DNA from: Chamaesiphon minutus PCC 6605
GTDB lineage: Bacteria; Cyanobacteriota; Cyanobacteriia; Cyanobacteriales; Chamaesiphonaceae
DNA: 64,000 bases
Direction of reading: 5' to 3'
NCBI RefSeq assembly: GCF_000317145.1
Contig: NC_019697.1
Location: forward strand, 3,754,385 to 3,818,384
Within the stretch, counting starts at the first letter, position 1, and each line of letters begins with the position of its first letter. Positions 3,994 through 11,481 of this stretch are shown here, piece by piece. The notes beneath the pieces are model-generated. The model was given only the letters and a program-made list of their open reading frames with translations. It did not search any database and was not told the origin of the DNA. Made by a program: the position numbers and the translations under genes.

Positions 3994-5199
3994 ATGCCTA
4001 AAACCTTATTCAATGTAGATCTGACCAAACCGATGGATAAGCAGGACATGCCCGGACACAACCGCTGGCACCCCGATATCCCCGCCGTTGCATCTGTCAA
4101 TCCTGGCGACATTTTTCGGATCGAGTGTAAAGACTGGACGGACGGACAGATTAAAAATAACGACAGCCCTGACGATATCCGCGATGTCGATTTGAGTGTC
4201 GTACACGTACTGAGCGGGCCAATTTGGGTCAATGGTGCCGAGCCAGGCGATATTCTGGTGGTGGATATCCTCGATATCGGGGCCTTACAGGGCGACGAAT
4301 GGGGCTTTACGGGTATCTTCGATCGAAATAATGGCGGCGGCTTCTTGACCGACCATTTCCCTAATGCCGCGAAGGCAATTTGGGACTTAGAGGGGATTTA
4401 TACCAAGTCTCGGCATATCCCTGGCGTCCGGTTTGCAGGTATCACTCACCCTGGTTTGATTGGCTGTGCCCCCTCCCACGAGCTGCTAGCGACCTGGAAT
4501 AAGCGGGAATCGGAATTGATGGCTACCCAGCCCGACAGACGCACTTATGGGGCTGGTTTTGCGGGAGATGTGCCTGTCTTGGCAACATTACCCAATCCGA
4601 CAAATGCGATTTTGGGTACTTTAGCTGGCTCGGAATTCGATCGAGTCGCAGCCGAAGCCGCACGGACGGTGCCACCCCGCGAACATGGTGGTAATTGCGA
4701 CATCAAAAATCTCTCGAAGGGTACCAAGATTTATTTCCCCGTCTATGTCGAAGGGGCCAAATTATCGATGGGCGATATCCATTTCTCTCAAGGGGATGGG
4801 GAAATTTCCTTCTGTGGCGCGATCGAAATGTCTGGTTTTATCGACTTACATGTGGATATTATCAAAGGCGGCGTAGAAAAATATGCGATGGTAAATCCGA
4901 TTTTTAAACCCGGCCCAGTCGAGCCGCATTATTCTGAATACCTAATCTTTGAAGGAATTTCGGTCGATGAATTTACAGGCAAGCAGTATTTTATGGATGT
5001 GCATATTGCCTATCGTCGTGCTTGTCTCAATGCGATCGAGTACCTGAAAAAGTTTGGATTTACAGGCGAACAAGCCTATCTCCTGCTCAGTTGCGCCCCA
5101 GTTGAAGGCCGAGTCAGCGGTATCGTAGATGTCCCCAATGCCTGTTGTACTGTCGCCATTCCTACCGCAATTTTCGACAAAAATATCTTACCCGTTTGA
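3994..5199 (+). CDS. fmdA: Formamidase / acetamidase family amidohydrolase
   Basis: Hydrolyses formamide (or short amides) to ammonia and the acid in the cytoplasm, a nitrogen-scavenging reaction. The 401-residue length and the motif series are those of the FmdA_AmdA family: PGHNRWHPDIP near residue 20, GPIWVNGAEPGD, the Gly-rich PPREHGGNCDIKN near residue 230, GDIHFSQGDGE, and a C-terminal VPNACCT. The downstream FmdB-like zinc-ribbon gene is the classic partner. Whether the substrate is formamide or acetamide cannot be read from the sequence. Confidence 0.92.
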   Translation: MPKTLFNVDLTKPMDKQDMPGHNRWHPDIPAVASVNPGDIFRIECKDWTDGQIKNNDSPDDIRDVDLSVVHVLSGPIWVNGAEPGDILVVDILDIGALQGDEWGFTGIFDRNNGGGFLTDHFPNAAKAIWDLEGIYTKSRHIPGVRFAGITHPGLIGCAPSHELLATWNKRESELMATQPDRRTYGAGFAGDVPVLATLPNPTNAILGTLAGSEFDRVAAEAARTVPPREHGGNCDIKNLSKGTKIYFPVYVEGAKLSMGDIHFSQGDGEISFCGAIEMSGFIDLHVDIIKGGVEKYAMVNPIFKPGPVEPHYSEYLIFEGISVDEFTGKQYFMDVHIAYRRACLNAIEYLKKFGFTGEQAYLLLSCAPVEGRVSGIVDVPNACCTVAIPTAIFDKNILPV

Positions 5200-5244
5200 T
5201 TTGAGTTCAAAAACGTAATGTTAATGAGAATTAGTTAAAGTCTT

Positions 5245-5268
5245 AAGATGGTGGGCACTGCCCACCCT
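5245..5268. repeat. Short hairpin repeat in the fmdA-fmdB spacer
   Basis: GGTGGGCA and TGCCCACC flank a short loop between the formamidase and FmdB genes. The sequence resembles the GTGGGCA-type dispersed palindromes common in cyanobacterial spacers. A weak translation across it appears to extend the FmdB frame upstream but is not protein-like. Confidence 0.6.
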
Positions 5269-5355
5269 ACTTCTAATACTTCTACAACTCAATATTTTAC
5301 CAAAAAATTAATCAGGATCGCTATCGTTCTCAATTATCAATTTTTAATTAAGCCC

Positions 5356-5625
5356 ATGCCTCTGTACGAATTTCGTTGTAACGACTGCGGGATATTTGAT
5401 GAATGGCGCATGATGAGTGAAAGTAACGCGATCGCTTATTGTCCGCAATGCCAAGAATCAGCCAAACGAATGTTTTCGATTCCTGGTATTCAATTAAATG
5501 GTGCCCTGCGGCTCAATAAAACCGAAAATCCGGAACCAAAGTTAGCTAAAAAGCAGGACACCGATCCGGCGCAGCGTAGTCGAGCCAAAAGCCATGGCGG
5601 TCGTCCCTGGATGATTAATCATTAA
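5356..5625 (+). CDS. fmdB: FmdB family zinc-ribbon protein
   Basis: Small putative regulator of 89 residues. It begins MPLYEFRCNDCG and continues to YCPQCQESAKR, giving the CxxC...CxxC zinc ribbon of the FmdB/CxxC_CXXC_SSSS family. The frame stays open 36 codons upstream, but that segment runs through a hairpin repeat and is not conserved-looking, so the ATG at 5356 is used. The C-terminal half is basic and low in complexity. In Methylophilus FmdB was proposed to regulate the formamidase operon. Its position about 160 bases after the formamidase gene supports the same pairing, although the biochemical role of the family is unclear. Confidence 0.85.
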   Translation: MPLYEFRCNDCGIFDEWRMMSESNAIAYCPQCQESAKRMFSIPGIQLNGALRLNKTENPEPKLAKKQDTDPAQRSRAKSHGGRPWMINH

Positions 5626-6211: not shown

Positions 6212-6404
6212 ATTGACTAGTTTTTGTCAACTGACGATTTTATAAAGGGAAGAGTTGTGTAGACTATTTCTTTAGAATAACTGATACATTTGCAACATTT
6301 TCAGTAGTTTTGCAATTCTCAAAGATCGATGATGTATTTAAGATGTGAAAGCGACTTCAAACTTTAGTGCGGAATATTTCCGACTTCTAGACCCCTCAAC
6401 TCAT

Positions 6405-6605
6405 ATGGATGGATTTTTGGAAGATCCACTAGCGAATCCGATCGCCCAAACCGTAGGAGATCCAGTCTTTCGGACTCAGTCACTCGATCGACCCAAACAA
6501 GCCTTGGCAAGCATCGAGATCTAGCTCCCACCAGCACAAATGGTTACTGTTGTTGAAAGTACGCACCGACAAACTTTTTTGGTGTTATTGAATTATGACA
6601 GATAG
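6405..6605 (+). pseudogene. NHLP-leader-like ORF interrupted by an in-frame TAG
   Basis: The frame from ATG 6405 (or GTG 6345) encodes a segment ending DRPKQALASIEI, then TAG at 6522-6524. Without a frame change it continues LPPAQMVTVVESTHRQTFLV and stops at 6605. Read through the stop, this matches the nitrile-hydratase-like leader peptide pattern of DPxFR...L..DPKxAL, then GIELP, then V.VVE.T...LVL. The C-terminal half also has its own ATG at 6540. The frame overlaps the next ORF, which starts at 6595, by 11 bases. It is either a decayed precursor-like gene or two short peptides. No modifying enzyme is adjacent. Confidence 0.55.
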
Positions 6606-6834
6606 AGAGGTACAAATACTACAATTGGGTTTAAATTCGCCACGTTCTTTGCGAGCGAGTAGCTTGCGAATTATACTCCAGGGTTGGCGAGATCTGGATT
6701 ATAAAGCGCAGCTATTGGCAGATCCCAAAGCTGTATCAATCACTGAAGATTTCGAGATTGCCGACGCAGCCATCGTGACAATTTTGGAAAACGATGTCGA
6801 ACACCTACATCTAGTTATACCCACCTTGCATTAG
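6595..6834 (+). CDS. NHLP-like leader peptide protein (putative RiPP-precursor-type)
   Basis: A 79-residue protein whose second half fits the NHLP / TOMM propeptide pattern well: a WRDLDYKAQLLADPKAV segment (the usual W.DP.Y...LL.DPK), then an acidic stretch, then VTILENDVEHLHLVIP (the usual V.VVE.....HLV.P). Only three residues follow the VIP motif, so there is no evident core peptide. It may be a stand-alone leader-like protein, a precursor that lost its core, or a distant member with another role. It overlaps a second, stop-interrupted copy upstream. No YcaO, LanM or radical SAM maturation gene lies nearby; the next gene is metH. Confidence 0.6.
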   Translation: MTDREVQILQLGLNSPRSLRASSLRIILQGWRDLDYKAQLLADPKAVSITEDFEIADAAIVTILENDVEHLHLVIPTLH

Positions 6835-7150: not shown

Positions 7151-10100
7151 ATGACAAGTTCCTTCCTCGATCGTCTCCATAGTCCCGAACGTCCTGTCAT
7201 CGTCTTCGATGGGGCGATGGGTACCAATCTCCAAGTCCAAAACCTCACGGCTGAGGACTTTGGGGGGGCTGAGTACGAAGGTTGTAACGAATATCTCGTC
7301 CATACCAACCCCGAAGCGGTAGCCAAAGTACATCGGGACTTTTTGGCGGCAGGTGCCGATGTCATCGAAACCGACACCTTTGGCGGTACGGCGCAAACAT
7401 TGGGTGAATATGGATTGCAAGACCAAGTATATTACCTCAACAAGACCGCCGCAGAATTAGCCAAAAAATGTACGGCAGAATTTTCGACACCAGAGAAACC
7501 CAGATTCGTCGCCGGATCGATCGGCCCTGGTACTAAATTACCCTCGATCGGCCATATCGATTATGACAGTCTAGAGCAAGCATACACCGAACAGGCTACG
7601 GGCCTGTTGGACGGTGGTGTGGATCTATTCTTAATCGAGACTTGTATGGACGTGCTGCAAATCAAAGCAGCGATTAATGGACTGGAGCAGGTTTTTAAAA
7701 ATAAAGGGGTGAGAATCCCGATTATGGTGTCGGCGACATTCGAGCATCCCCAAGCGACGATGTTGTCTGGTAGCGATGTAGCAACATTATTGACGGCATT
7801 GCAACCATTTCCGATCGATATTTTAGGCTTGAATTGTGCGACTGGGCCAGATCTCATGGCTCCACATATCAAACATCTGTGCGAACAATCGCCATTTGTG
7901 GTTTCTTGCGTACCAAATGCTGGATTGCCAGAAAATATCGGCGGTCACGCTCACTACAAATTAACGCCGATCGAACTCAAATTGGCGATGTATAAGTTCG
8001 TCGAAGATTGGGGCGTTCAAGTAATCGGTGGTTGTTGTGGCACTCGACCAGAACACATTAAAGAATTAGCAGAAATTGGGGCGACTTTAAAGACCAAAGT
8101 ACGGATTCCGATATTTGAACCAGCGGCATCTTCATTAATGTCGGTGCAACCCTATCATCAGGATAATTCATTCTTAATTATCGGCGAACGTTTGAATGCC
8201 AGTGGCTCGAAAAAATGTCGCGATTTATTAAATGAAGAGAATTGGGATGGCTTAGTTTCCCTCGCGAAATCTCAGGTACGCGAAGGTGCCCACGTGCTCG
8301 ATGTCAACGTCGATTATGTCGGACGCGATGGTGTTAAAGACATGCACGAAGTGGTATCGCGAGTAGTGAATAACGTTAGCTTACCGCTAATGCTCGACTC
8401 CACTGAGTGGGAGAAAATGGAAGCCGGATTGAAAGTTGCTGGCGGTAAATGTCTGCTCAACTCGACTAACTATGAAGATGGCGAAGAACGCTTCTATAAA
8501 GTCTTAGAAATTGCTAAGAAATATGGTGCCGGGATCGTGATTGGGACGATCGATGAAGAAGGCATGGCACGAACGGCACAGAAGAAATTCGAGATTGCCA
8601 AACGTGCCTATGATGCGGCTGTCGCTTATGGTTTCCCACCCTATGAAATCTTCTTCGATCCCTTAGCATTACCGATTTCGACGGGGATTGAGGAAGACCG
8701 CGCAAATGGTAAAGCGACTGTCGAATCGATCGAAATGATTCGTCAAAATCTTCCCGAATGTCACGTTTTATTAGGACTATCGAATATTTCCTTCGGTCTT
8801 AATGCTGCCGCACGGCAAGTCTTAAACTCGATGTTCCTGCATGAGTGCATGGCTGTTGGCATGGATGCCGCGATCGTCAGTCCGAATAAGATATTACCAC
8901 TCGCTAAAATAACGCCCGAACATCAAGAAATCTGTCGAAATCTGATTTACGATCGCCGCCAATTTGATGGGGATATCTGTACCTACGATCCGTTAGGTTT
9001 GCTCACTACCATGTTTGAAGGAGTGACAACCAAACGCGATAAATCCGAGGATGATAAATTACCGCTCGAACAGAAACTTACCCGCCATATTATCGACGGC
9101 GAACGAGTTGGATTGGAAGCTAACTTGATGAAAGCGATCGAGAAATATCCGCCCTTAGATATTATCAATATCTATCTCCTCGACGGCATGAAAGTAGTTG
9201 GCGAACTCTTCGGTTCGGGACAAATGCAATTACCTTTCGTTTTGCAATCTGCCGAAACCATGAAAGCCGCCGTCGCTTTCCTCGAACCCCACATGGATAA
9301 AGCCGATGTCGGTGTCAGTAATGCTAAAGGAAAATTCGTCATCGCCACCGTCAAAGGTGACGTACATGATATCGGTAAAAACCTCGTCGATATCATCCTC
9401 TCGAATAATGGCTATGAAGTGATCAACATGGGTATCAAACAACCCGTGGAAGCCATCATTCAAGCCTACGAAGAACACAAACCAGACTGCATTGCCATGA
9501 GCGGACTACTGGTAAAATCCACCGCCTTCATGAAAGAAAACCTCGAAGTTTTCAACGAAAAAGGCATCACCATTCCCATCATTCTCGGCGGCGCAGCTCT
9601 CACTCCCAAATTTGTCTATAACGACTGCCAGCAGGCTTATAAAGGGCAGGTAATCTACGGGAAGGATGCTTTTGCCGATCTGAACTTTATGGACGCGCTG
9701 ATGCCCGCAAAACATGGCAACAAGTGGGATGACTTTAAAGGCTTTCTCGATGAAGATGGCAACCCGATTAAAGTCGCTGTCGAAGTTGAAGAAACTAATG
9801 GCAAAACTGACAAAACTAACGAGTCAAACGAACCACTAATTATCGACACCGTGCGATCGGAAGCCGTATCATTAGAGATCGATCGACCTACACCACCATT
9901 CTGGGGTACCAAAATCCTCAAAGATGAAATCTCGATCGAAGATCTATTCTGGCACATGGATCTCCAAGCCCTCATCGCCGGACAATGGCAATTCCGTAAA
10001 CCCAAAGAGCAATCGCGGGAAGAATACGACGCATTCCTCGCCGAAAAAGTCCACCCGATCCTCGCAGAATGGAAAGCCAAAATCCTCACCGAAAAATGGC

Positions 10101-10708
10101 TCGAACCCCAACTGATCTATGGCTACTTCCCCTGTACCGCCGAAGGTAACTCCGTCCACGTCTACGATCCCAGCGTCATCGAGCAAGGCTTAACGCCCCA
10201 AACAGCTACCCCCGTAATCACCTGGACATTCCCCCGTCAAAAATCCCTGCGTCGCCTCTGTCTGGCTGATTTCTTCTGCCCCCTATCAGAGAATAAATTC
10301 GACGTATTCCCAATGCAAGCCGTAACGATGGGCGAAATCGCCACCGAGAAAGCGCAAGTGTTATTCAAAGCCGATAACTATGCCAACTATCTCTACTTCC
10401 ACGGCATGGCTGTCCAGATGGCTGAAGCCTTAGCCGAATGGAGCCACGCCCGCATCCGCAAGGAGTTGGGTTATGGCGATTTAGAGCCAGATAATATTCG
10501 CGATATGTTGGCACAACGCTATCAGGGTTCGCGGTATAGTTTCGGCTATCCCGCTTGTCCGAATGTGGCGGATCAGTTGCAGCAGTTGGAAATCATGGGT
10601 ACCCAGCGGATGGGAATGACGATGGATGAGAGCGAACAGCTATATCCCGAGCAGTCTACTACTGCGTTGATTGTCTATCATCCTGTGGCTAAGTACTTTA
10701 GTGCTTAG
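7151..10708 (+). CDS. metH: Cobalamin-dependent methionine synthase MetH
   Basis: Transfers a methyl group from 5-methyltetrahydrofolate via cobalamin to homocysteine. All four modules are present in 1185 residues. The Hcy-binding barrel (about 10-310) has zinc ligands in LNCATG (near 229) and GGCCGT (near 293). The pterin-binding domain (about 345-600) follows. The cap and B12-binding domain has DVHDIG, with D737, the cobalt ligand H739 and G742. The activation domain is at the C-terminus, with [11 protein letters not shown]. An insert of Thr/Asn/Glu-rich sequence at about 878-905 acts as a linker. The last 154 bases are duplicated downstream at 11326-11479, on the far side of a DUF559 gene. 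Confidence 0.97.
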
Positions 10709-10861: not shown

Positions 10862-10889
10862 ACGGAATCAAGTCTAAATGTTAGAGACA

Positions 10890-11261
10890 ATGCCGACTTT
10901 TCATTTGCTGTATAACCATAATCTGATTGAGCTTGCACGGAATATGCGGCAGAATCCTACTCCAACGGAGCGGAAATTATGGTACGAATATCTCAGGGAT
11001 GTGCCAGTTAGAGTGTTGCGACAGAAGCCAATCGATCGATTTATCGTGGATTTCTATTGTGCATCTGTCAAACTAGCGATCGAGATTGATGGAGAGCAGC
11101 ACTTTACAGAATCAGAAGTAATTTATGACACAGAAAGAAGTGCAATCTTAGCTGGCTATGGAATCGAAGTTATCAGATTTACCAATCAGGAAGTAATGAA
11201 TGATTTTGAGGGTATATGTCAACGAATTGCTGATGCGATCGAAATTCCTACAACTCACTAA
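10890..11261 (+). CDS. DUF559 domain endonuclease-like protein
   Basis: A 123-residue member of the DUF559 family, distantly related to Vsr/MTH restriction-like nucleases. Visible features are the helical [16 protein letters not shown] start, [14 protein letters not shown], then IEIDGEQH (the acidic core of a PD-(D/E)xK-like site) and the C-terminal [14 protein letters not shown]. The ATG at 10890 is preferred over 10878 because family members start here and AGAG lies just upstream. It sits between two copies of the metH 3' end and beside G/C-block palindromes. A second copy of its last 63 bases lies at 12836-12898. Its biological function is not established. Confidence 0.85.
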
Positions 11262-11325
11262 AGATTTAAAATCCCCCCTGGAAAAGAGGTTGGGAGATTT
11301 CACCCTCGAACGGAGCAGCCAATCA

Positions 11326-11481
11326 GCTTGTCCGAATGTGGCGGATCGGTTGCACCAGTTGCAAATCATGGGTACCCAGCGGATGGGAATGACGATGGAT
11401 GAGAGCGAGCAGCTATATCCCGAGCAGTCTACTACTGCGTTGATTGTCTATCATCCTGTGGCTAAGTACTTTAGTGCGTAA
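11326..11481 (+). pseudogene. Duplicated 3' end of metH
   Basis: Bases 11326-11479 repeat metH bases 10553-10706 with about five mismatches over 154 bases, including the codons for the CPNVAD and [13 protein letters not shown] segments and the final YFSA followed by a stop. Some substitutions change residues (Q to R, Q to H, E to Q). The copy has no activation-domain start and cannot work alone. The two copies lie 773 bases apart with the DUF559 gene between them, as expected if a unit inserted at the metH end and brought or created a second terminus. Confidence 0.93.

Follow-up and report, generated by a model that had tools for sequence, protein, structure and literature searches.

The window analysed here is a 64-kb stretch of a 6,284,095-base contig of Chamaesiphon minutus PCC 6605, and the site under study lies at 3.76 Mb of that contig. 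Beside a gene that we take, from its sequence, to be metH, the window carries two small frames, numbered copy 1 and copy 2 (Table 1; all positions are those of the window). The end of copy 1 and the start of copy 2 overlap by 11 bases. A GTG at 6345, upstream of copy 1, opens the same frame and is an alternative start. An earlier, sequence-only reading of this DNA had placed the two frames, and the stop codon within the first, at the positions given in Table 1, and all of these were confirmed. It had also named a zinc-ribbon hypothetical gene and metH as the neighbours. This was right for metH, but the zinc ribbon belongs to the next gene on the other side; the immediate neighbour there is a divergent gene whose best Pfam match is a zinc finger (E 0.035). 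The spacer between the divergent gene and the copies extends into the first codons after the GTG. Farther out, at 3994-5625, the window holds a formamidase (PF03069) and then the small zinc-ribbon protein; by eye, this pair also adjoins the divergent gene in the relatives G003 and G005. Labels of this kind denote the genomes compared, and labels such as L039 denote loci taken from them; G007 is Chamaesiphon sp. CAN_BIN30.

Table 1. Features at the site, in positions of the 64-kb window.
Feature	Position	Strand	Remarks
Zinc-ribbon protein (PF09723)	5248-5625		Next gene beyond the divergent neighbour, beside formamidase
Divergent neighbour gene, 152 aa	5753-6211	-	No Pfam family above cut-off, no NCBIfam family
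Spacer from divergent neighbour to copies	6212-6368	.	88.3% identical in G003 (136/154 aligned bases)
Copy 1, NHLP-domain frame	6405-6605	+	ATG to TAG at 6603, interrupted by TAG at 6522-6524; domain match 6441-6587
In-frame TAG within copy 1 domain	6522-6524	+	Read from the sequence
Copy 2, open 79-aa NHLP-domain frame	6595-6834	+	ATG start; lacks Gly-Gly site and core; domain match 6667-6828
metH (presumed)	7151-10708		Named from its sequence

We compared both frames with the NHLP profile TIGR03793. Copy 2 matched at 33.3 bits (E 3.2e-8). Copy 1, translated with X at the TAG, matched at 21.5 bits (E 1.5e-4), and the matched residues span the stop; the 59 residues that precede it gave no match at E values up to 10. 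The domain match of copy 1 thus exists only across the TAG, which bears out the in-frame continuation noticed earlier. Both matches are significant, and neither reaches the curated cut-off of 50.9 bits. When the same profile was run over the whole C. minutus genome, copy 2 was found at an E of 3.1e-7 and copy 1 at 0.0015; below 0.01, it otherwise matched only a single true nitrile hydratase alpha subunit, in two stretches, at 2.64 Mb. At E values up to 1 this search is loose, with matches in 5 of 14 control genomes, none over the cut-off, and only strong matches were used. An independent NHLP profile, built from eight segments of other genomes and including neither copy, was run on the six frames of the window. 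It gave 29.2 bits for copy 2 and 11.3 bits for copy 1, compared to a best score of 4.8 bits in 30 dinucleotide-shuffled windows. Applied to the parts of copy 1, it gave 2.4 bits before the stop, 6.1 after it and 15.4 for the two joined. Moreover, a gapless local alignment of copy 1 with copy 2 over 49 residues scored 43, a value reached by none of 1,000 shuffles of copy 1 (maximum, 38). By these sequence comparisons, both frames are homologous to NHLP domains. The homology proposed in the sequence-only reading therefore stands, and its proviso that neither frame might match such a profile fails, since both match TIGR03793. The leader pattern that it had written out does not hold to the letter: copy 2 reads WRDLDY...LLADPK...VTILENDVEHLHLVIP, while copy 1 reads VGDPVF...SLDRPK...VTVVESTHRQTFLVLL and lacks the W.

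Cysteine is absent from both copies, which are thus without the catalytic metal site of nitrile hydratase. Copy 2 matched the Pfam family NHase_alpha (PF02979) in part, at 25.4 bits (E 1.1e-5), under the cut-off of 27.2; it is not a full-length nitrile hydratase alpha subunit with the CTLCSC metal site. Its C terminus, ...HLVIPTLH followed by the stop codon, contains no Gly-Gly cleavage motif and, as had been noted for the residues after VIP, no core peptide. For TIGR03795, the profile of the Burkholderia NHLP pair, no match was listed for either copy at E values up to 10, a range in which the HMMER filters drop most matches above 0.1.

To follow the site in related genomes, we took loci around metH (9/11 family genomes) and around the divergent gene (4/11). 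Seven relatives of the same genus could be judged at the site. Another, G008, was left out of this count; a TIGR03793 search found in it an NHLP precursor with a Gly-Gly core. Several relatives are represented by fragmented assemblies, some of them 77-93% complete. Broken remnants were present in two of the seven (G003 and G007). As for the unrelated sequence in relatives that might have spoken against the sequence-only reading, related sequence was found at the site in 2/7 and none in 5/7. No NHLP match was detected within 1,500 bases upstream of metH in G001, G002, G004 and G006, or on the 7,259-base contig that carries the divergent gene in G005. At the sites of these five, the only matches at E values up to 10 were two of 8 residues each (E 4.0 and 6.8). 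In G007, the order of divergent-gene homologue, NHLP remnant and metH is the same as in the window. A TGA lies in the G007 remnant, where good alignment is confined to the last 28-30 codons, the 28 C-terminal codons matching at 60.7% amino acid identity. Of the 152 residues of the divergent gene, the G007 homologue (L039) matches only 124, and the matched part contains a TAA, so this neighbour may be shortening there too. Of the relatives searched, G003 is closest to the window (metH, 98%; divergent gene, 80%), and its metH is on another contig. It retains the spacer and the end of copy 2, with roughly 320 bases deleted in all and a one-base frameshift. Between the window and G003, the remnant is 81.3% identical (87/107 bases), less conserved than the adjoining spacer at 88.3%. 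Neither G007 nor G003 shows a recognisable remnant of copy 1, and for this reason the age of the pair as a pair has to be read from the window by itself. A query with copy 2 against 60 genomes, its own included, returned itself and G007 only. In a scan of genome contigs, copy 2 gave no match and an NHLP alignment (A1) gave the CAN_BIN30 remnant only.

The three carriers (C. minutus, G003 and G007) formed one clade with a local support of 0.999 in a tree of nine genomes based on 600 bases of metH. By eye, an lpxC-like gene directly adjoins metH in G002, and it also lies upstream in the window and in G007. This arrangement suggests that a block with the pair was inserted between the lpxC-like gene and metH in the clade of the carriers, or was lost in G002.

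We examined the coding history of copy 2 over the comparable stretch, which is limited to about 30 codons. Over 29 codons, the window and G007 show 16.8 differences per 20.5 synonymous sites, compared with 15.2 per 66.5 non-synonymous sites. Since the synonymous differences are far higher per site, the domain appears to have been selected as a protein for part of its history. The window and G003, compared with one base left out to hold the register, differ at 8 of 20.8 synonymous and 10 of 66.2 non-synonymous sites. The window branch carries 4 non-synonymous to 3 synonymous changes, where 3.4 to 1 would be expected at random, and these are too few for a verdict on present constraint; on the G003 branch there were 5 and 3, one of the latter in the stop codon. 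Copy 2 may still be under selection, because its frame is open with an ATG and because the differences to G003 lean synonymous. In the window, G003 and G007, copy 2 stops at one shared position, directly behind the domain. Judging from this common position, copy 2 was probably without a core before the species split.

For the families searched, the sequence-only reading was right that no maturation enzyme lies nearby. No YcaO match was obtained anywhere in the genome. The search for a distant enzyme, which came back empty for YcaO, yielded three LanM N-domain matches, at 2.29, 2.30 and 4.33 Mb, all more than 0.5 Mb from the site. Nif11-like precursors lie near these, two at about 2.29 Mb (below the model cut-off) and four at about 4.32 Mb (above it). 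At 4.34 Mb, again more than 0.5 Mb away, lies the sole exporter match above cut-off, which is of the NHLM type (TIGR03796; 1136.7 bits). Therefore, as far as YcaO, LanM and this exporter are concerned, the pair does not cluster with a modifying enzyme or an NHLM exporter. A two-component lantibiotic cluster has been reported for C. minutus PCC 6605 (PMC3951391), in a paper that does not mention NHLP.

Elsewhere in the order, alignment A1 matched 24 of 388 genomes at E values up to 1e-4; as G000 and G007 are components of A1, their matches are built in, and the count without them is 22. We read 21 ORFs from among the 30 loci of this search, and 17 of them end in a Gly-Gly motif and a tail. The remainder comprise a nitrile hydratase alpha subunit, an ORF whose tail lacks Gly-Gly, and two core-less frames (G314 and G102). 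Two NHLP domains in one ORF were detected by profile in G362, G021 and G025 and by eye in G164 and G266. In G296 (L073), a 319-aa ORF has, by eye, four apparent NHLP domains, then Gly-Gly and a Gly/Arg-rich tail. The 259-aa ORF of G025 (L053:962-1741) has no Gly-Gly, and a W-rich stretch follows each of its two domains. ORFs of 206-235 aa in G000, G017 and G027 with tandem TIGR03793 matches had been candidates for intact tandem leaders; they were rejected as nitrile hydratase alpha subunits with CTLCSC (by eye).

Core-less NHLP frames are found in G102 (79 aa), G314 (78 aa) and G018 (62 aa, counted from the ATG), the first and last being 59% identical. The match in G018 runs over a TAA upstream of the ATG. 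G102 and G018 share a block of a response regulator, the core-less NHLP frame and a partner of 398 or 383 aa (L089:4469-7209 and L052:5440-8087), which occurs in 2 of 14 family genomes. The two partners are 37% identical. Neither has an NCBIfam match, and the 383-aa one has no Pfam match either. A few other cyanobacteria thus carry core-less NHLP frames, two of which, from different genera, share their neighbours, and such "leader" domains may therefore function without a peptide to lead. These frames resemble copy 2 in that the protein ends soon after the domain. They differ in scoring above the TIGR03793 cut-off (G102, 72.1 bits; G314, 81.0 bits; G018, 67.5 bits) and in their gene neighbourhoods.

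Neither tandem pairs nor orphans are new, as both are described by Haft et al. (2010; PMC2887384): Burkholderia has tandem NHLP gene pairs, which other genera carry as fusions, and some NHLP members come from species in which no modifying enzyme was identified. The window copies share with the leader peptides of TIGR03793 a homologous domain from nitrile hydratase alpha in which the metal-binding Cys motif is absent. They differ in scoring under the cut-off and in having no Gly-Gly, hypervariable core or nearby modifying enzyme or exporter. With the Burkholderia pairs of TIGR03795, they have in common two NHLP-type genes side by side, whereas they lack a match to that profile and their genome lacks a YcaO match. 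A literature search on core-less or tandem NHLP leaders found no such title; as it covered titles only, absence from print is not implied.

Taken together, we consider it probable (about 0.7) that the two frames are remnants of a tandem pair of core-less NHLP-domain genes that is decaying in one Chamaesiphon clade. Among the three possibilities offered in the sequence-only reading (orphan leaders, stand-alone domains or a decaying pair), the genus comparison favours decay of a pair, with the addition that copy 2 was probably core-less beforehand. The pair would have arrived, or been retained, in the ancestor of the clade, next to metH. Copy 2 would have worked as a core-less domain protein that used its structured domain to bind some partner, such as a modifying enzyme or an exporter, and this function would no longer be needed. 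Of the two, copy 1 is a pseudogene, and copy 2 may be a young pseudogene or the last surviving member, its protein still being made. Most likely, this is an ordinary fading gene pair. As such, it chiefly offers a clean example of how RiPP leader genes fade when their machinery is absent, and it would be a decayed example of core-less NHLP function.

A rather unlikely alternative is that only copy 1 is dead and that copy 2 still functions as a core-less NHLP-domain protein, acting alone or in trans, for instance by holding a modifying enzyme or exporter. Its open 79-aa frame, the past purifying selection on its C-terminal codons, the core-less frames of G102, G018 and G314, and the NHLM-type exporter of its own genome would all fit. 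However, the two sister species that still have copy 2 both carry it in broken form, and it was not found at the site in the five other relatives. Promoter-like sites are not in excess (3, against 2.2 in shuffles, sd 1.6), no terminator-like site was found, and no ribosome-binding site is apparent by eye. A single-sequence AlphaFold run gave a fold of poor confidence (mean pLDDT, 58.6), and G018, one of the genes compared, is perhaps itself shortened, given the TAA just before its ATG. It is likewise unlikely that copy 2 is the last survivor of a core-less NHLP line whose stand-alone domains perhaps present, or compete for, RiPP enzymes in trans; if this were true, NHLP domains would have been retained for a role that does not involve leading a peptide.

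We are more doubtful still that the pair descends from an ordinary RiPP precursor that lost its core, such as the tandem-leader precursors with Gly-Gly cores exemplified by G362. Single ORFs with at least two NHLP domains and a Gly-Gly end exist in G362 and G021 by profile and in G164, G266 and G296 by eye, and the domains of G362, going by match positions, have a spacing of about 80 and 88 residues, close to the value for the window pair (about 77). Against such descent, the three carriers share the stop right after the domain, and the copies lie in different frames that a single shift could join only within about 11 bases (6592-6602). Recoding of the TAG by programmed read-through, which would leave copy 1 functional, would account for domain similarity in frame on both sides of the stop. 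It is nevertheless highly improbable: neither G003 nor G007 has a recognisable copy 1, hence no conserved stop is demonstrable, and inspection by eye shows that the W and one L of the domain are gone from copy 1. A chance resemblance to NHLP domains, to which the scores under the curated cut-off might point, is hardly credible and was refuted by the genome-wide search and the shuffle control, in which 0/30 shuffled windows came close; the end of copy 2 is, moreover, recognisable in two other species.

Downstream of metH, the window shows a partial duplication of the end of that gene. A second small frame at 11200-11481 repeats the last 51 metH residues with 48/51 identical, and between the two repeats sits a frame (10878-11261) that, by its appearance, is presumably a DUF559-type protein.
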